Shown in pieces: positions 2,262-12,120 of a stretch of 40,142 nucleotides of DNA (the first letter of the stretch is position 1; every line of letters starts with the position of its first letter). The notes beneath the pieces were generated by a model. The model was given only the letters and a program-made list of their open reading frames with translations. It was not told the origin of the DNA and ran no database searches. Source of the DNA: Deltaproteobacteria bacterium (GTDB lineage: Bacteria; Myxococcota_A; Bradymonadia; REDH01); NCBI GenBank assembly GCA_007693585.1, contig REDH01000193.1, positions 1 to 40,142 of the forward strand, read 5' to 3'. The position numbers and the translations under genes were made by a program.

Positions 2262-3053
2262 TCAGCAGCCCCGGAAATCAGGCCTGCGCTTGCCCAGGAA
2301 CGCCGCCACGCCCTCCCGGGCATCCGCTGACCCGAATCCCTCCGCAAACGCCGCCGTCTCCTCCGTGAGACCCTCGTCCAGCGCCACGTCGAGCGCCCGG
2401 TACGCCAGCCGCTTCGACGCCGCCACCGCAAGCGGAGCCCGCGTCGCGATCTCGTTCACCGTCGCCCGGGCGGCCCCCAGCAGCTCCTCCCCGTCCACCA
2501 CCCGGTTCGCCAGACCGATGCGCAGCGCCTCCTCCGCATCGATCATGCGACCCGTCGTCAGAAGCTCGATCGCCATCGCCACGCCCACACGCCGCGTCAG
2601 CCGCTGCGTCCCACCGAACCCCGCGATCAGCCCCAGATTCACCTCCGGCTGCCCGAACCGCGCCGAGCGCGACGCGTAGATGAAGTCGCACGCAAGCGCC
2701 AGCTCGCACCCCCCACCCAGCGCAAAGCCGTTCACCGCCGCGATGACCGGAACCCGAAGCCGCTCCAGCCGCCGGAACAGCGCCGAGCCCTCCGCCGAGA
2801 ACCGCCGCGCATCTTCCTCCGACATCTCCGGCATCCGCGAGATGTCCGCACCCGCCGCAAAGGCCTTCGGACCTTCGCCGGTGATCACCAGCCCACGCAC
2901 CGCCGACGAGGACTCCACCACGCCGATCGCCGCGCCCAGATCCGCCAGCAGCTCGGCGTTCAGCGCGTTCAGTGCCGCCGGCCGAGACAGCGTGATCGTG
3001 GCGACGTGACCGTCGATCGCAAGCTGCAGGTTCTCGAAGGTCGGAATGCTCAT
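2262..3053 (-). CDS. Enoyl-CoA hydratase/isomerase (crotonase family)
   Basis: Encodes 263 aa. ATG at 3053 was chosen because GGAGG lies 7 nt upstream and the family's N-terminus begins there, although the frame stays open further upstream. Oxyanion-hole segments are AAGAD (about 66-70) and LGGGCE (about 112-117). Glu117 and Glu137 (in GQPEVNLGL) have the 20-residue spacing of the two catalytic glutamates of rat enoyl-CoA hydratase (144/164), which supports true hydratase activity on short-chain trans-2-enoyl-CoA. It lies between the 3-hydroxyacyl-CoA dehydrogenase and meaB genes, forming a fatty-acid or butyrate-type unit. Other crotonase functions cannot be excluded by sequence alone. Confidence 0.92.
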   Translation of the reverse strand: MSIPTFENLQLAIDGHVATITLSRPAALNALNAELLADLGAAIGVVESSSAVRGLVITGEGPKAFAAGADISRMPEMSEEDARRFSAEGSALFRRLERLRVPVIAAVNGFALGGGCELALACDFIYASRSARFGQPEVNLGLIAGFGGTQRLTRRVGVAMAIELLTTGRMIDAEEALRIGLANRVVDGEELLGAARATVNEIATRAPLAVAASKRLAYRALDVALDEGLTEETAAFAEGFGSADAREGVAAFLGKRRPDFRGC

Positions 3054-3078
3054 CGGGGCCTCCGCAATCGGGGGGGAC

Positions 3079-3936
3079 TCAGTTGTAGGTGTGGAAACCG
3101 CGGCCGGCCTTGCGGCCAAGGAACCCGGCGTCCACATGCTGACGAAGCAGCGGGCAGGGACGGTACTTGTCGTCCCCCAGACCCGCGTGAAGCACTTCCA
3201 TGATCGCCAGGACCGTGTCGAGACCGATGAAGTCCGCCAGCGTGAGCGGACCCATCGGCTGGTTCGTGCCCAGCACCATCGCCTGGTCGATGTCCCGCGC
3301 GCTGCCCACCCCCTCCATCAGGGCGTAGCACGCCTCGTTGATCATCGGGATCAGCACCCGGTTCACGATGAACCCGGGGTAGTCACTCGCCGTGACCACC
3401 GTCTTCCCGAGCCGCTCGCATACCGCCGTCGTCTTCGCGCACGTCTCGTCACTCGTGGCCAGGCCGCGGATGATCTCCACGAGCTTCATCACCGGCACCG
3501 GGTTCATGAAGTGCATCCCGATCACCCGCTCCGGACGCTCCGTCACCCCGGCGATCCGCGTGATCGAGATCGACGAGGTGTTCGTCGCCAGGATGGCATC
3601 CGGGCGGCAGACCTCCTCCAGACGACGGAACACCTCGTGCTTCACCTCCGGTGACTCCGTCACCGCCTCCACCACGAGATCGCAGTCCGAGAAGACACCC
3701 GGTTCCGTCGAGGTCGCGATGCGGCCCACGACGGACGCCGCCTCATCCGACGAGATCCGCTCCTTGGCCACCAGCCGATCGATGGCCTTGCGCAGACGCG
3801 CCATCCCCCGCTCGACGCCGGCCTCCGTGCGCTCCACGATCTGTACGTCGAAGCCGGACTGTGCAGCCACCTGAGCGATGCCGCTGCCCATCTGGCCAGC
3901 GCCGAGAATTCCGATCCGCCGGATGCTCTCCGTCAT
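3079..3936 (-). CDS. hbd: 3-hydroxybutyryl-CoA (3-hydroxyacyl-CoA) dehydrogenase
   Basis: Encodes 285 aa, close to the usual length of about 283. ATG at 3936 is preceded by a GGAG-type site. The NAD-binding Rossmann motif GAGQMG lies at 12-17, followed by NTSSISIT and the catalytic His region GMHFMNPVPVMKLVEI. The C-terminal helical domain starts at DYPGFIVNRVL and ends with FLGRKAGRGFHTYN. The enzyme oxidises 3-hydroxyacyl-CoA to 3-oxoacyl-CoA, the step after the adjacent hydratase. The stop is 25 bp before the hydratase start. The frame stays open far upstream, but that extension antisenses nothing recognisable and is a high-GC artefact. Confidence 0.94.
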   Translation of the reverse strand: MTESIRRIGILGAGQMGSGIAQVAAQSGFDVQIVERTEAGVERGMARLRKAIDRLVAKERISSDEAASVVGRIATSTEPGVFSDCDLVVEAVTESPEVKHEVFRRLEEVCRPDAILATNTSSISITRIAGVTERPERVIGMHFMNPVPVMKLVEIIRGLATSDETCAKTTAVCERLGKTVVTASDYPGFIVNRVLIPMINEACYALMEGVGSARDIDQAMVLGTNQPMGPLTLADFIGLDTVLAIMEVLHAGLGDDKYRPCPLLRQHVDAGFLGRKAGRGFHTYN

Positions 3937-3998: not shown

Positions 3999-4940
3999 CT
4001 ACGCAAGCCCCGGAAAAGGGGCGTCCCGTCCCGGGGCGGGAAGGGCGTCGAGGGACACCTCCACCCAGGGCGAAAACGCATCCCGAGTGGCATCCCACAT
4101 CCGAAAGTGCAACCCCGTCAGCCGCGGTCCCGAGAACGTGTACCGGCCCACCGCCGCCCGCTTCTCCGGTCGGGCGGCCAGGCCGAGAGACGCGCTCCCC
4201 AGTCCGCTCGCCACCGTCGAGGGGGCGTCCGCCAGGCGACGGACCTGATGATGGTGGTTGTGGCCATGCAGCAGGAGGTCCACCCCGCACCGTCTGCAGA
4301 GAGCCCGCAGCGCCGGGCCGTCCCGCAGGTTCCGCCGCTCGTCGGAACGCCGCGCCGGGGCCCGGTCCGGATGATGGTGGGCGGCGATCACCACCGCCTG
4401 CCCCGCGTCCCGCTCCGCCGAGCAGACCCGCTCCAGCCGAGCGAGCTGCTCGTCGCCAACCCGGCCCCACGCCATGAACGGCGGGGTCGCCACCGCCGTG
4501 TTCACATGCACGAGCGAGACCGGGCCGATGCGGAGAAGCCGCGGCCAGCCCCCGCCGTCCCCCGCCTCCGGCGCGAGAAGATCCTCCAGCTCGCGCTCCA
4601 GCACCCCGACCGACCCGGCCAGGTAGACGTCGTGATTGCCGGGGATCGCGGTCACGGGAATCCCGCTCCGCACCACCGGGTCCAGCCGCAGCCGCGCCGC
4701 ACGGAACTCCGACGGCAGCGCCAGGTTCGTCAGATCGCCCGTCACCACCAGGTGATCCGGCCCATCCTCGCAGACCGCAGCAATGGCCGCGTCCAGTACC
4801 TGCATGTCGTGGGCACCCGATCGGTGCAGACGGTGGTTGAGCCACCCCGTCACGCGCTTCGTCGCCATGTCCCGGGGGCGAAGATCCGCGAAGTCGATCA
4901 CGTGCAGATCCGTGAGCTGAGCGATCCTCGTCGTGCTCAC
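3999..4940 (-). CDS. Calcineurin-like metallophosphoesterase
   Basis: Encodes 313 aa from GTG 4940, preceded by GGAGGAGAG. The start overlaps the stop of the upstream gene by 4 nt (GTGA), so translation is probably coupled. All dimetal motifs are present in order: DLH near the N-terminus (TDLHVIDF), GD (VVTGDLTN), GNHD (IPGNHDVYL), His (IAAHHHPD) and GHNHHH. These ligands bind two metal ions and hydrolyse phosphomonoesters or diesters. The overall pattern resembles CpdA and UDP-diacylglucosamine hydrolase relatives, but the substrate cannot be read from sequence. There is no signal peptide, so it should be cytoplasmic. Its tight coupling to a dead-looking acyl-CoA synthetase relative is unusual. 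Confidence 0.88.
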   Translation of the reverse strand: MSTTRIAQLTDLHVIDFADLRPRDMATKRVTGWLNHRLHRSGAHDMQVLDAAIAAVCEDGPDHLVVTGDLTNLALPSEFRAARLRLDPVVRSGIPVTAIPGNHDVYLAGSVGVLERELEDLLAPEAGDGGGWPRLLRIGPVSLVHVNTAVATPPFMAWGRVGDEQLARLERVCSAERDAGQAVVIAAHHHPDRAPARRSDERRNLRDGPALRALCRRCGVDLLLHGHNHHHQVRRLADAPSTVASGLGSASLGLAARPEKRAAVGRYTFSGPRLTGLHFRMWDATRDAFSPWVEVSLDALPAPGRDAPFPGLA

Positions 4941-6616
4941 GTCTCTCCTCCCTCGTCGATCCGCAACAGGACGTCGTGCGCCAGCGGGCCCCCCGCCAGA
5001 AGCCGCAGCGGGCGGATCGAGAGCGCGAGCCTGCACCCCTCGGGGCCGAGGTGCTGCCGCAGCAGATCGTGCGCCACGAACGCCGCCTCCACACCGCGCT
5101 GCAGGGACTGCTCGGTGGCGGCCCGGATCGCCGGAGGAAGATCGAGCGGCGCGAGCGCATCGCCATACAGGCTGCGCACCGGAAGGCCCACCGAACGCCA
5201 CGTCCGCCCGTTGCCCTCCAGCGACACCATCGGCCCGAACCGGGCATGCTCGACCACGTGGACCGTGAACGCAGGCGTACCCACCGGCACCGGACGCAGC
5301 AGCAGCCCGGCCTCCATCCCGCCCCGCCGGCGGGCGGTGGACAGCAGGTCATGGGCGATTCGCCCCAGCCGTGCGCTGTCCGGAACGATCTCCGCGGCCT
5401 CCGCCATCCCGTCCGCGACGTGCGGTGCCCATGCGCTGATCTCCACGGGAAAGCCCAGGGCAGCGGCCGCCATCGGCGCGTCTTCCACGTACCGGACCAC
5501 CGTGGACGGAGCGAGCGGGATGCCCATCCCCGCCGCCACCTCGCGCTGGGCCTCCACCGGGGCGACATGCCCGGGGTCGCGCCGCAGCGCCATGGCCACC
5601 CGCCGCAGCCGCGATGCGTCCGCCGGGCCGGGGAGCGCGCGCAGGCGGCTCGTTCCGCCGGGCTCCGTGGGCCACGACGTGCCGATGGACACCGCCCGGG
5701 CCGCCTCCCGCGCCTCCACGACCCCCGTCCCGGGAGGCAGCCGCTCGGCGAGCCGACGACACTGCGCGGCGCTCCCGTGCAGGACCACCAGCAGCCCCAC
5801 CTCCGAACGCGCCTGATCCGGATCGGAGAGGCGCACCGCGATCTCCTCCAGCTCCGCCTCCGTCAGCTCGGGGAGATGAAGGAGCACCAGATCGTGGGCC
5901 GTCGTGCGCAGGAACGAACACGCCGCCTCCACCGCCTCGCCCACCGCGCCGGCCACCACCGCTTCCGCGTCCGTGGCACCCGCGCGCCCCGGCTCCGTGC
6001 CGGGCCCCACCACCACGCGCCAGCGCCCGCCGGCATCGGGCAGCGGGCCGCACAGCAGCCGCAGCGCGGCACACAGCGGCTCCCCCCGGGAATGCGACAG
6101 CACCCCGAGGTGCTGCCACCACGACCGCAGAAGATCCCCGTCCGGCTGGTCCCGCTCCCGGTCCACTCGGAACACCGGCTGCTCCCCAGCCACGGCGGAC
6201 AGGGTGTCCCGGAGCGGCCCGAGGGCCTCCGGTGTGGGGACATCGAGCAGCAGCAGCCGCGTCATCGGGTGCCGGACCGCCACCTCGATCCAGTCCGCCA
6301 GCTCCTCCGCGCTGCCGGGGGTCACGGCGGCGCCGAACGACGTGCCGAGACCGCGCTCCGCGAGATCCGACATCCACGCCGCCAGACGCCTGGGGTGATC
6401 GGTGAGCACCGCCACGGGACCGCTGGCGCGCGGCTCCGCCAGACGGCCCGCGTGGAACCGCGCACCGTCCCGGCGCACGAACGAGAGCGCTTCCCCGTCC
6501 GGGTCGATCCGCAGCGCGCCGCCACGGGCCGACTCGGCCACGCGGGACGGTTCCTCCTGCGGATCGCTGCGGGCGCAGTGGCGAACGATGTCGGCGGGGT
6601 CCCGCACCTCAGTCAT
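4937..6616 (-). CDS. Degenerate NDP-forming acyl-CoA synthetase-like (CoA-ligase plus ATP-grasp) protein
   Basis: Encodes 559 aa. Its ATG overlaps the stop of the upstream lipoprotein gene by 8 nt. Residues about 66-150 match the first succinyl-CoA-ligase-like fold (GPVAVLTDHPRRLAAWM, then RHPMTRLLLLDVP). Residues 160-320 match the second (LGVLSHSRGEPLCAALRLL is like the linker of Pat/Acd enzymes). Residues 354-559 match ATP-grasp_5 (AAALGFPVEISAWAPH, HARFGPMVSLEGNG). Known members begin with a CoA-binding Rossmann domain of about 130 aa, carry a catalytic SHTG-type histidine and use an ATP-grasp lysine (VLKxxSPDIxHKSD). Here the first domain is absent and those motifs are not recognisable. 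I infer a non-catalytic or re-purposed relative. The homology is my pattern recognition, not a search result. Confidence 0.65.
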   Translation of the reverse strand: MTEVRDPADIVRHCARSDPQEEPSRVAESARGGALRIDPDGEALSFVRRDGARFHAGRLAEPRASGPVAVLTDHPRRLAAWMSDLAERGLGTSFGAAVTPGSAEELADWIEVAVRHPMTRLLLLDVPTPEALGPLRDTLSAVAGEQPVFRVDRERDQPDGDLLRSWWQHLGVLSHSRGEPLCAALRLLCGPLPDAGGRWRVVVGPGTEPGRAGATDAEAVVAGAVGEAVEAACSFLRTTAHDLVLLHLPELTEAELEEIAVRLSDPDQARSEVGLLVVLHGSAAQCRRLAERLPPGTGVVEAREAARAVSIGTSWPTEPGGTSRLRALPGPADASRLRRVAMALRRDPGHVAPVEAQREVAAGMGIPLAPSTVVRYVEDAPMAAAALGFPVEISAWAPHVADGMAEAAEIVPDSARLGRIAHDLLSTARRRGGMEAGLLLRPVPVGTPAFTVHVVEHARFGPMVSLEGNGRTWRSVGLPVRSLYGDALAPLDLPPAIRAATEQSLQRGVEAAFVAHDLLRQHLGPEGCRLALSIRPLRLLAGGPLAHDVLLRIDEGGET

Positions 6617-9600
6617 GGCGCTGCAGACGGTAGCCCGTGGTGACGGAAGGGTCGAAGCCGGTGAGCTCCACGTAGTGCGGCCCCCCGCCCGTGGCGGTCA
6701 GGGTCAGGCGGAGCGAGTCGCCGTCCCGGACCACGGTGCCCGTCTCGACCAGGTCGGGGCCGTACCCGAACAGGTCCACATCGATCGCGCTCCGATCGAG
6801 CTCCGCTTCCAGCACGAGGGTCTCCCCCGCGCCCAGGTCGACGGTGAACCAGTCGCTCTCCCCGGGGCACAGCCGCAGCGGCTCGTCGAGGAAGTCGTCC
6901 AGCGCCGCGGCGTCGAGGAACACGTTGTTGGGCGCGGCGGCATCGGGGATGCACGCCTCGCGGAGGGTGAGGGGCGCCGCGATGGTGTTGTTCCCGGGAT
7001 CGAGATCCTGCACGTCCCCGTCCGGGTCGAGCTCGGCCACGAGCCAGGCGTTGCCGGCAGGGAGGGCGCCCGGAGGCAGCGTGACGTTCCCGATCCGCGT
7101 GCGCTCGGTGAACGCCGCCAGCGGATCGGCGTCGAGGGTCCGGAGCGGGATGGCGCGCTCGTCCACGAAGGGGACCGGCGCGAGGTGCAGCGCGATCCGG
7201 AAGGCGGGTGCGTCGAGTGCGCCCCCGTTGAGGAAGCGAAGCGTGAACCGGATGGCGTCCCCCAGCTCCACCGAGGTGGGCTGCGTCGCGAGGTCCACCG
7301 CCACCAGGTCGATCCCGTCCAGCCCGTCGACCGTGATGCGGTAGGGCTGGGCGCGCTCGCCGGCACCCGCGGAGCGGATGCGCACGTAGTGCACGCCGGA
7401 GACGGCAGGGGTGAACCGCAGCACCTCCGCGGCGTTCACCGTGGTGGCCAGGAAGGACTGCGAAGAGCTCCACAGCGAGAGCCGCAGGGTGGAGGGCAGC
7501 GCCTCGTCGGGCACGGGGACGAGCTGGAAGGCGACCTCCCGCCCGGCCGGCAGGTTCACCCGGAAGTAGTCCGTGTCCCCGGTCGGGCACAGGGCCAGAT
7601 CCCGGTTGAGCCAGTCCTGGAGCGGTGCAGCGGTCCCGAACGTGCCGTTCGGCTCGGCGGCGCGGTTGCACGCCAGCTCCGGAGGAGCGGGCTCGGCCAC
7701 CACCGTCATCCGGTAGGGGACGTTGCGATCGGGACCGACCGTGTAGACCTCGACGATGTAGCAGGTGTCGGCGGTGACGAAGTCCACCCCCACCTCCTCC
7801 TCCGGCCCGAGACCCTCGGAACGCTCGAGGAGGTTCCCCGCCGGCCCGAAGAGGCGCATGTCGAGATCGCCGTCCGCCGGGTCGAAGTCGATGCGCACGG
7901 AGAAGGTGTCCCCGCCTTCCACGCACACCTCGTAGAAGTCCGGGTTGCCCGTGCAGGACCGCAGGCCCTCGAAGCGGAACGGCGACGCCCCGTCCAGAGG
8001 CAGCGGCGCCGCAGCGCCGATGCTGTTGTTCGGCTCGTAGGGGTCGACGCACGCGTCGTCGACCAGGAGCGGGCCGGACACCCCGATGTTGTTGTCCAGG
8101 TCGAGCTCCTCGATGTCGCCCCGGGCATTGGCCTCCACGATCACGTTCCACGCCCCCCCCTCGATCCCGGGCGGAAGGGTGACGGCGTTGGTCACGGCAA
8201 GACGATCCAGCACCCGGGTCACGGGGACCTCGCGCAGGAGGATGTCCTCGGTCGGGTCCAGCCGGCTGTCCCGCGAGAGCCACAGGCGCGTCACGTGCGC
8301 CTCCGCCGGTGTGTCGCCGAGGTTGACCAGATCGTACCGGACGTCGACCTGGCCGCCGGGGAGCACCGTGCCGGGGTCCACGCGGACATTGAACACCGTG
8401 AGGTCGGTCCCCTCCACGGGGGAGGTGACCGAGAGCTCGAGGTCGTAGAGGTTGCGATCGGCGGCGGTCCGCCCGCGGACGCGGAGGAAGTAGTCGCCGC
8501 GCCGCGGAACCACGGCGTAGGACACCTCCTCCCGATCGCGGGAGGTGACCGACTCGTCGAGCACCGTGCTCCCGTCCGTGCTGAAGAGCGTCAGATCGAG
8601 GTTGCCCCGGGTCGAGGCGAAGGTGATCACGGCGCGGATGGACTCGCCGGCCAGCAGCGGAATGCGGTACCAGTCCTCGTTCGACGTGCACATCGTCAGC
8701 CCCGTGAACCGACGGACGTCCGGATCGAGCAGCGCGGCCTGGCCGGAGCTGTTGTTCGGCTCGAAGGGATCCGCCTCGCACGTGCAGATGCTGCCCTCGA
8801 TCCGGAAGGGCTCGGCGATCGTCGCGACGTTGTTCGCGCGGTTCGAATCCGGGACCAGATCCGTCGCGTCCACCTCCGCGAACAGGGTATAGTTCGGCTG
8901 GAAGGTGTCGCACCGGGCGTCCGCGACGAGCTGCAGCGTGCGGCAGCGCCCGGGGTCGAGCGAGGGCAGGGTGGTCTCGGCCGCGATCGTGTCGTTGCGG
9001 CTGAACTGGCTGTCCACGGACTGGTACACCCGCACCACCGACGGGGTCGCGCCGTTGCTCCCGTCGTTGCAGATCTCCATCTCGTAGGTGACCTCCGTCC
9101 CGTCATCGGCCACGAGGCGATCCACCTCGAAGCGCACCAGCACCAGGTCGATCTGGGCCTCGGTGTTGATCGTCAGCGCCTCCGTGGCCCGGACCAGGTT
9201 GTTGTCCCGGTTCGCATCGGGGATGCGGAAGCTGGGGTCGCACACCAGGTACGCACCCCACACGCCGGGCTCGATCAACGACGTGATGGGCGCGATGCGG
9301 GTGACCACCCGACTCTCCCCGGCCGCCAGCGTGCGGACGGTGAACGTGTCGATGGTGGCGTCCCGCGACGGCTCCGGCACGTCGCCCTGCGTGAGCTGCG
9401 TGCGGCAGAAGAACGACGTGGGGATGTCCTCGCTGCCCAGATTCGCCACCTCGGCCTCGATCTCGACCGTGCCCCCGACGAAGGTGATGGCCGGACGGAC
9501 GGCCAGGGAGAGGGCGGCGATGTCCACGCCGGCCTCGACGTCGTCGGTCACGGTGATCGGGGTGGAGCGCGCCGTCGTCGTCCGCGCCTCCCCGCGCGTG

Positions 9601-10676
9601 AACGACAGGTCCACCCGGACCGTGTACTGCCCGGGCGCGCTGATGGGCTCGTCAAGAGGCACCTGAACGTCCCCGGTGTCCACCTCCCCGCGGGCCGGAA
9701 GGTTCGAGATCTCCCCACTGCGCAGGGGGATCTCGAGGTCACCCGGGCCCTCCAGAACCGCGTCCCAGCGCAGGAAGAGCGCCGGCTCGTCCCCCGTGTT
9801 CGCCAGGATCGCCGAGAAGGTGACGGTCCCCAGCAGACTCGTCCGGGCCGGCCGGGCCGTCACCGTGCGCACGCTCAGCGACGGCCCGGACAGATCGCGG
9901 TTGATGAACGTGATCGACTGCTCGCCGAGCTGCGCGTTGGCGCTCCGGTCCCGATCGCCGATGCGCCGATCCGGATCGGCGCGCACGAGCACCCGCCACG
10001 TCCCGCTCGGCGCATCCGACGGGAAGCGGACGCCCTCGAACCGCACCGCACGCTCAGCGGCGCTGGCCTCGAGGGGCTCGAGCTCCAGCGTGGCCAGCGG
10101 ACGCACATCGCCGTCCGCGATCGCCGCGTCGAGGGTCTCCGGACGCTGCGGATCCAGCGCGCCGACCATCGCCCCGGGGACGGCGTACAGCACCAGATCC
10201 ACCGGCAACCGGGTCTCCGCACCGCGGTTGCGGACCGTCACGTCCACCGTCAGCGAGAGGTCGCTGTCCAGGTTCAGCGGGCTCGCCGTCGGGCGGCCCA
10301 GCGCCAGATCCGCAGGCTCGACCACCTCGATCGTCCGCGTGCCCTCCGCCACCCGCACCTCGTCCTCGAACGCCTCCACCCGCAGCTCGAAGGCCCCCGC
10401 AAAGGGCCACGCATGCTCCACCTCCCGCCCCTCGGCCACCTCCCCGTCACCGAACGACCAGCGAAAGACCACCGCGTCCTCGTCCACACCCTCCGGCGCC
10501 AGCACGCGCAGCCCCGTGGGCTCCTCGGCCCACACCACGTCCGACGAGACATCGACCACGAGCGCACCCGTCGGCGCGGCACCGTCCCCGCTGCCACAGG
10601 ACGCTGCCAGAACGAGCAGGGCAGGGAGGAGGAGAAGAGGGGGCGAAAGGAACGGACGGGCGGGGGACTGCTGCAT
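6609..10676 (-). CDS. Large CARDB/PPC-repeat lipoprotein
   Basis: Encodes 1,355 aa from ATG 10676. The signal peptide ends in LAASC with Gly at +2, indicating a surface or periplasmic lipoprotein. A PKD-like domain (FRWSFGDGEVAEG) comes first. Several CARDB-type beta domains follow, with repeated openings such as DLVLVRFEVD, DLTVFNVRVDPG and DLVAVDLATQPT. These alternate with four PPC-type domains introduced by Cys plus EPNN-like motifs (CEADPFEPNNS, CVDPYEPNNS, CNRAAEPNGTF, CIPDAAAPNN). Such modules usually mediate adhesion or protein interactions outside the cell, and no catalytic domain is visible. It leads an overlapping leftward operon with the CoA-synthetase-like and metallophosphoesterase genes. 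A very long frame on the opposite strand is a shadow. Confidence 0.85.
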   Translation of the reverse strand: MQQSPARPFLSPPLLLLPALLVLAASCGSGDGAAPTGALVVDVSSDVVWAEEPTGLRVLAPEGVDEDAVVFRWSFGDGEVAEGREVEHAWPFAGAFELRVEAFEDEVRVAEGTRTIEVVEPADLALGRPTASPLNLDSDLSLTVDVTVRNRGAETRLPVDLVLYAVPGAMVGALDPQRPETLDAAIADGDVRPLATLELEPLEASAAERAVRFEGVRFPSDAPSGTWRVLVRADPDRRIGDRDRSANAQLGEQSITFINRDLSGPSLSVRTVTARPARTSLLGTVTFSAILANTGDEPALFLRWDAVLEGPGDLEIPLRSGEISNLPARGEVDTGDVQVPLDEPISAPGQYTVRVDLSFTRGEARTTTARSTPITVTDDVEAGVDIAALSLAVRPAITFVGGTVEIEAEVANLGSEDIPTSFFCRTQLTQGDVPEPSRDATIDTFTVRTLAAGESRVVTRIAPITSLIEPGVWGAYLVCDPSFRIPDANRDNNLVRATEALTINTEAQIDLVLVRFEVDRLVADDGTEVTYEMEICNDGSNGATPSVVRVYQSVDSQFSRNDTIAAETTLPSLDPGRCRTLQLVADARCDTFQPNYTLFAEVDATDLVPDSNRANNVATIAEPFRIEGSICTCEADPFEPNNSSGQAALLDPDVRRFTGLTMCTSNEDWYRIPLLAGESIRAVITFASTRGNLDLTLFSTDGSTVLDESVTSRDREEVSYAVVPRRGDYFLRVRGRTAADRNLYDLELSVTSPVEGTDLTVFNVRVDPGTVLPGGQVDVRYDLVNLGDTPAEAHVTRLWLSRDSRLDPTEDILLREVPVTRVLDRLAVTNAVTLPPGIEGGAWNVIVEANARGDIEELDLDNNIGVSGPLLVDDACVDPYEPNNSIGAAAPLPLDGASPFRFEGLRSCTGNPDFYEVCVEGGDTFSVRIDFDPADGDLDMRLFGPAGNLLERSEGLGPEEEVGVDFVTADTCYIVEVYTVGPDRNVPYRMTVVAEPAPPELACNRAAEPNGTFGTAAPLQDWLNRDLALCPTGDTDYFRVNLPAGREVAFQLVPVPDEALPSTLRLSLWSSSQSFLATTVNAAEVLRFTPAVSGVHYVRIRSAGAGERAQPYRITVDGLDGIDLVAVDLATQPTSVELGDAIRFTLRFLNGGALDAPAFRIALHLAPVPFVDERAIPLRTLDADPLAAFTERTRIGNVTLPPGALPAGNAWLVAELDPDGDVQDLDPGNNTIAAPLTLREACIPDAAAPNNVFLDAAALDDFLDEPLRLCPGESDWFTVDLGAGETLVLEAELDRSAIDVDLFGYGPDLVETGTVVRDGDSLRLTLTATGGGPHYVELTGFDPSVTTGYRLQRHD

Positions 10677-10874: not shown

Positions 10875-10935
10875 CCCGCGGGTGGCCGCCGCAGCGCGGC
10901 GAGCGCGAATCCTCAACCGGCATGGAGGTGCTTCG

Positions 10936-12120
10936 GTGGCGACGAGACGACGAGGAGCTGACCTGTCCGACCTGAAGAGCCGACTCGGGCTGCCCGAAAA
11001 GCCCGAGCAGGCCGCAGAACCTGCCCCCGAAGAAGCCCCGGCCGCCGGCACCGAGGACAGCCCCGGCGAAACCGCGTCCGACGGCGGAGACGCGGCACCG
11101 GCCGCCGCCCCTGCAGCCCCCGCCGCCAGGCCCGCTGCAGCACCCGCGGCACCCGCCGCCAGGACCGCCGCTCCGGCCCCCGCCGACGACGAGGACTACG
11201 GCGCCGCCGTCTCCGCGGCCGAAGAGGAGGTCGCCTTCCAGACCACCGCCGAGGATATCGCCCTCGACCCCGAGACGATCCACGGAAAACTGCCCCTCGG
11301 TCTCCTCATCGCCGTCGCCGCCACCGGCCTGATCGCTCTCGTCCTCGGCTACCTCGCCGGCTCCGTCTTCGACGGCCGCAGCGTCGTCAACCGACAGATC
11401 GCCGAGGCCCAGCGCATCCAGCCCGAACTCGACGCCCTCGCCTCCACCCTCAGCAACGTCCGCAACCAGCTCGAAACCATCGACCTCACCAGCGGCGTCA
11501 GCAACGACTTCGACCGCCTCCTCCAGAACACCTGGGGCGAAGGCGCACCCATGCTCCCCGCTCGAAGCCTCACCTCGAGCAGAACCCTCATGGCCTACGA
11601 CCCGGACCTCTCCCGGGACCTCCTCAACTTCTCCGTCGAGACGCAGCTCCTCAACGCGCTCGTCCAGCAGCACCTCCGACTCGCCGAACGCGACCGCGAC
11701 GAAATCCAGCGCGAGCTCGCCGGTGCCGAAGATGACCGGAACTTCGCCATCATCTTCAACAACGACCAGCAGCTCGACAACTTCGGCACCTTCGCACAGG
11801 CCGATGGCGAAGAAGACTTCACCCCCGAACGCGGCGTCCGCGTCCACTACGAGTCCCTCGAAATCATCCCCCGCGACGGAGGCTTCGCCTACAACGTCAT
11901 CCAGATGGACGGCCGCGAGATCGAGGTCCCCATCTACAACCTCGTCCTCCTCCCCCGCGAACAGCTCCTCGAAGGGGCCACCACCGACACCGCAACCAAC
12001 CGCTGGGGCAACCGCGCCCGCGCCATCGCCGAGCGCGTCTCCGCCGTCGCCGAATCCCAGCGCCGACTGCGCGAGCGAATCACCGAAATCGCCGACCGCA
12101 ACAAGCTCTTCACCATCTGA
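10936..12120 (+). CDS. Single-pass membrane protein with Ala/Pro-rich cytoplasmic arm, unknown function
   Basis: Encodes 394 aa. GTG 10936 is chosen because GGAGG (10924-10928) lies 7 nt upstream; an upstream in-frame alternative at 10882 lacks this. The N-terminus has a short basic helix (LSDLKSRLGLPEK), followed by an about 70-residue Ala/Pro/Glu-rich disordered stretch. One transmembrane helix lies near residues 119-145 (LLIAVAATGLIALVLGYLAG). The C-terminal 250 residues would be periplasmic, with helical coiled-coil-like segments (IAEAQRIQPELDALASTLS and a final RLRERITEIADRNKLF) around a beta-rich part. The design resembles an envelope scaffold or tethered sensor, but I recognise no family. 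It is 10 bp upstream of thiD. Confidence 0.8.
   Translation: MATRRRGADLSDLKSRLGLPEKPEQAAEPAPEEAPAAGTEDSPGETASDGGDAAPAAAPAAPAARPAAAPAAPAARTAAPAPADDEDYGAAVSAAEEEVAFQTTAEDIALDPETIHGKLPLGLLIAVAATGLIALVLGYLAGSVFDGRSVVNRQIAEAQRIQPELDALASTLSNVRNQLETIDLTSGVSNDFDRLLQNTWGEGAPMLPARSLTSSRTLMAYDPDLSRDLLNFSVETQLLNALVQQHLRLAERDRDEIQRELAGAEDDRNFAIIFNNDQQLDNFGTFAQADGEEDFTPERGVRVHYESLEIIPRDGGFAYNVIQMDGREIEVPIYNLVLLPREQLLEGATTDTATNRWGNRARAIAERVSAVAESQRRLRERITEIADRNKLFTI

Follow-up and report, generated by a model that had tools for sequence, protein, structure and literature searches.

We report a gene, here called X, that is confirmed as a relative of the NDP-forming acyl-CoA synthetases (ACDs), and whose status as a pseudoenzyme is well supported. 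X lies in a 40,142-nucleotide stretch of DNA (the window) from an uncultured relative of predatory bacteria, between the genes of a lipoprotein (LIPO) and a metallophosphoesterase (MPE). The explanation we favor, with a probability of about 60%, is that X is a stand-alone ACD pseudoenzyme that maybe regulates the adjoining phosphoesterase; the choice of MPE as its partner is a guess with moderate support, the two being linked by adjacency alone.

Relationship of X to the ACDs

X by itself gives a faint signal. With E-values up to 10 allowed, Pfam returned ATP-grasp_5 alone (E 5.4e-4, residues 356-470), a match whose 19.8 bits fall below the 27.6-bit cut-off of that family, and NCBIfam returned no match to X. 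A PDB sequence profile of X reached ACDs at E 0.06 and 0.55; it also returned a betaine aldehyde dehydrogenase (E 0.0036, 63 positions), which we judged to be a chance match. The profile-profile comparison (hhalign) of X plus its ortholog, described below, with nine ACDs from the same phylum, picked for intact motifs, was colinear over 408 columns with a score of 91.8 and an E-value of 9.2e-11. For comparison, 60 column shuffles scored 22.5 at most, the reversed alignment 18.8, and the neighboring proteins MPE, C412 and LIPO 14.8, 13.2 and 22.5, while X alone scored 54.3 and the ortholog alone 57.7. In hhalign, in a 14-sequence alignment and in structure comparison, the X chain runs from a Succ_CoA_lig-like fold (subdomain 2) through a ligase-like fold (subdomain 5) to an ATP-grasp domain, the order found in ACDs, and this bears out the sequence-only reading, which had recognized two ligase-like folds and an ATP-grasp domain in this open reading frame. 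The 14 sequences are X, the ortholog and 12 of 15 ACD fragments (omitted were L043, L047 and L032, the last reading identical to L044).

Structure prediction against ACD and Pat structures, the check that reading had proposed, gave matches to both. An AlphaFold model made from X and the ortholog only is poor (pLDDT 44); its top Foldseek match is E. coli PatZ (E 9.3e-11), with unrelated folds appearing from 2e-4. Adding 12 ACDs to the alignment raised the pLDDT to 66.7, with low confidence at residues 1-31, and this second model is biased to the ACD fold because ACDs stood in its alignment; it again matches PatZ best (9it0, E 3.9e-19) and also matches DddX, Nmar_0206 and ACD1. VIA structure comparison of the X model with ACD1 alpha gave Z 22.9 and rmsd 3.8 over 304 residues, and the ATP-grasp_5-like domain compared with 1wr2 gave Z 18.1 and rmsd 3.8 over 216 aligned residues.

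We note that chance long open reading frames are frequent in this GC-rich window, that the strand opposite X has an open frame of its own there, 555 codons long, and that the two frames cannot be told apart by codon usage (0.025 vs 0.028 bits per codon). Since codon usage is uninformative here, the X frame is preferred on account of its homology and its syntenic ortholog. No signal peptide was seen in X by eye, and the protein is probably cytoplasmic. PADLOC, a search for defense genes, had no match for X, the ortholog or MPE.

The sequence-only reading had also called X a degenerate copy, a description that is not borne out as worded. In the X genome PF13607 matches only C95:17724 (sucD-like), and PF13549 matches only C95:16066 (sucC-like) and X. 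Because these other matches are next to each other on contig C95, where we read them as sucC and sucD, X is not the copy of a working paralog; the possibility of a degraded copy is ruled out, as the genome shows no intact ACD.

Loss of a subdomain and of the active sites

The features of X and its neighbors are collected in Table 1.

Table 1. Positions in the window of X, its parts and the two adjoining genes, with the evidence for each.
Feature	Position	Strand	Basis or remark
MPE, calcineurin-like metallophosphoesterase, 313 aa	3999..4940	-	Pfam
X, degenerate ACD-like protein, whole gene	4937..6616	-	ATG start, 559 aa; Pfam, profile comparison, alignment
X residues 347-556, ATP-grasp_5-like domain	4949..5578	-	Pfam, PDB profile, structure comparison
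X residues 533-535, ACD D-x-N replaced by S-I-R	5012..5020	-	ortholog has E and I at two columns
X residues 394-402, ACD ATP-grasp Lys replaced by Ser394, His by Asp402	5411..5437	-	gaps in ortholog
X residues 196-325, ligase-CoA-like (subdomain 5) fold, internal deletion	5642..6031	-	alignment, structure comparison
X residues 61-195, Succ_CoA_lig-like (subdomain 2) fold	6032..6436	-	alignment, structure comparison
X residues 165/166, deletion site of swinging loop with catalytic His (SHTG in ACDs)	6119..6124	-	alignment columns 225-238
X residues 1-60, short stretch at place of ACD CoA-binding Rossmann domain	6437..6616	-	alignment
LIPO, lipoprotein with PKD, CARDB and PPC domains, 1354 aa from chosen start	6609..10673	-	Pfam; lipobox-like LAASC by eye

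The CoA-binding Rossmann domain had been described as absent from X, and the catalytic His and ATP-grasp Lys/His motifs as not visible; each of these losses holds up. X has only some 60 residues ahead of subdomain 2, and Pfam found no CoA_binding match in X; the SQSG motif, which begins near residue 158 in the ACD L020, has its equivalent at residues 72-75 of X, where it reads TDHP (CASN in the ortholog). At column 225 all 12 ACDs have His, and both X and the ortholog have a gap; the latter two also have the internal deletion of subdomain 5 in common. Likewise, the ATP-grasp Lys/His and metal-site columns (518, 526, 528, 588, 605, 672 and 674) are changed or lost in both. Among 86 columns that are near-invariant in the 12 ACDs, 24 are conserved in X, 22 in the ortholog and 13 in both, and for the 37 of these that are polar the counts are 8 for X and 6 for the ortholog.

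In active ACDs the ATP-grasp His takes the phosphate and hands it to the swinging-loop His, as described in extracts of PMC11494057. X resembles active ACDs such as Nmar_0206, DddX and ACD1 of Ca. Korarchaeum in the subdomains that follow subdomain 1 (Z 20-23), but unlike them it has neither the swinging-loop His (H256 in Nmar_0206, according to the same extracts) nor the ATP-grasp His (H535, likewise). With both relay His residues absent, ADP-forming ligation by X is not expected via that route.

Alternatively, X might be a repurposed enzyme in which the ACD folds serve a new reaction or ligand through newly conserved residues, for instance a Glu-His pair at 456-457. X and the ortholog are identical at 105 columns, and 26 of these carry a residue found in none of the 12 ACDs, among them W109, W166, E456 and H457, which would be in keeping with such a change. 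With two sequences only, however, these 26 residues may reflect common descent alone, and the known ATP- and phosphate-handling residues are gone, so we regard a new catalytic function as unlikely.

Ortholog, distribution and neighboring genes

The ortholog of X, in the genome G002 of genus g3, is 28% identical to X, has 607 codons compared to 559, and shows the same losses of the swinging-loop His, the ATP-grasp residues and the CoA-binding domain. It too sits between lipoprotein and phosphoesterase genes, with overlaps of TTGA and GTGA. In the window, the start of X overlaps the stop of the upstream LIPO gene by 8 bases (ATGACTGA) and its end overlaps the start of the downstream MPE gene by 4 (GTGA); the coordinates given for the X frame are correct.

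A profile of the two sequences found the X family in 2 of 57 class genomes, both in one taxonomic family; the ortholog had been found from phosphoesterase neighborhoods, and a query with X alone matched 1 of 57 (X itself) and missed it. Across 377 genomes of the phylum, with at most three candidates scored per genome, the two-sequence profile gave a match at E up to 0.01 in 24, and the 22 matches other than X and the ortholog span just 34-230 model positions and seem to be common ACD or ATP-grasp proteins. A 14-row profile run on the class genomes revealed no further degenerate full-length relative among the matches listed. The X family is a small group of pseudoenzymes specific to this lineage. 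Two members are known, each from a metagenome-assembled or draft genome.

The locus was found in five genomes of the family, and two of these have X. In the other three, all of a third genus (g2), an empty gap of 57-58 bp separates the lipoprotein gene from that of the phosphoesterase, and X is therefore dispensable in g2; a fifth relative in the family, G005, had no phosphoesterase match. The earlier idea of a three-gene set accordingly stands to the extent that the set occurs in two genera, but its wide conservation does not, in view of the three g2 genomes. In a FastTree phylogeny of LIPO plus MPE the X-less g2 groups beside g3 (support 0.94 for the two genes together and 0.845 for MPE by itself), and a history of one gain in the family followed by loss in g2 is weakly favored.

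Such a loss might be taken to mean that X is a fading gene, that is, an ACD captured in the operon of the family ancestor, neutral ever since, lost in one genus and leaving the others. Besides its absence from the three g2 genomes and the placement of g2 beside g3, the 28% identity of X to its ortholog, compared to 36% for LIPO and 41% for MPE between the X genome and G002, is as such a history would have it. At this divergence of the partners, however, the X frame has outlasted a long separation, and the unbroken frames of 559 and 607 codons, with overlapping starts and stops where neutral frames should be broken, speak against a decaying pseudogene, as do the 13 ACD-invariant columns that both carriers keep. 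We consider gradual decay improbable, and hold that selection probably retains X for a non-catalytic role: a dead ACD that two only distantly related genera both retain, with the same partner genes on either side, probably persists in a regulatory or scaffolding role and not as an enzyme.

As to the partners themselves, the D-x-H, GD, GNH and GHxH motifs of MPE, read by eye, are all present, and among solved structures its sequence comes nearest to Rv0805 and related phosphohydrolases, at a weak E of about 1e-4. With E-values up to 1e-25 allowed, 43 class genomes had a phosphoesterase match, and the loci of 20 of these, outside the family, were fetched. At 14 of the 20 (13, plus L088 by tblastn) the LIPO gene is directly upstream of the MPE gene, without X; the exceptions are L082, L085, L086, L087, L093 and L094. 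An X-like gene directly upstream of the phosphoesterase was found at none of the 20.

Several observations were made on the wider neighborhood. The LIPO (~1270-1390 aa)/MPE pair spans much of the class, and in several loci a divergent uncharacterized protein lies beyond it (10882-12120 in the window, and relatives). In family f3 (L082, L085-L087) the phosphoesterase follows a different gene in place of the lipoprotein, in L082 an aspartate decarboxylase by Pfam. Family f5 has uncharacterized genes after the phosphoesterase (7855-10166 in L079, with similar ones in L080, L081, L083, L095 and L097), and the three in L079 had no Pfam match above cut-off. Just downstream of MPE in the window (2262-3936) are a 3-hydroxyacyl-CoA dehydrogenase (Pfam) and, by eye, an enoyl-CoA hydratase-like gene; dehydrogenase homologs are also near the phosphoesterase in L011, L090, L091 and L092.

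Possible function of X

The nearest parallel we can draw is with type I/II GNATs, in which an inactive ACD domain binds acetyl-CoA and regulates the GNAT (PMC8556138, in extract). The comparison with Pat made in the sequence-only reading is apt in that the Pat ACD domain is likewise inactive, and X resembles Pat (E. coli PatZ/YfiQ, Salmonella Pat) in its ACD folds, its lost catalytic His and its top Foldseek match; it fails in that X has no GNAT domain, the protein ending after the ATP-grasp domain. X further differs from Pat in missing most of the CoA-binding subdomain and the ATP-grasp residues. It is very unlikely that X represents the ACD half of a Pat-like lysine acetyltransferase that has split in two, and that it regulates a GNAT whose gene lies elsewhere, for although PatZ is its best structural match and the genome has 11 Acetyltransf_1 matches, X lacks both a GNAT and the first, CoA-binding subdomain, and GNATs occur in six of six family genomes whether or not X is present.

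Another relative, 3dmy, titled a predicted acyl-CoA synthetase from E. coli, compares with the X model at Z 12.9 and rmsd 5.7 over 267 aligned residues. We take 3dmy to be an FdrA-type ACD relative; such proteins have an altered function and are not known to have the ATP-grasp part, whose fold X retains. A stand-alone catalytically dead ACD was not stated in the titles and abstract openings of the literature searched.

Returning to X as a stand-alone pseudoenzyme, we suggest the following scenario. X would descend from an NDP-forming acyl-CoA synthetase that lost its CoA-binding domain, phosphohistidine loop and ATP-grasp residues, presumably before the carrier genera split, the losses being shared, and that retained subdomains 2 and 5, the ATP-grasp domain and its frame. 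X and MPE lie in one operon-like row and are probably translationally coupled, since their codons overlap. The old subunit-interface folds of X would most likely offer a platform for oligomerization or ligand sensing, and this platform could hold or tune the phosphoesterase in much the way that Pat uses its inactive ACD domain to tune the GNAT, in which case X may be likened to a Pat-type ACD domain freed of its GNAT and shorn of subdomain 1.

This leads us to a more speculative proposal, advanced only tentatively, that X founds a stand-alone ACD pseudoenzyme family regulating a cytosolic calcineurin-like phosphodiesterase; an acyl-CoA-derived fold would then be tied to the turnover of phosphodiesters, of nucleotide or lipid type, in a single family of the Bradymonas class, alongside genes of acyl-CoA oxidation. 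The X locus is a small three-gene unit that is open to testing. Should X prove to be fading, it would provide a clean example of the decay of an enzyme fold within a conserved operon. If our preferred explanation is true, an ACD scaffold has been kept for regulation without chemistry of its own and without the acetyltransferase that the known dead domains serve.
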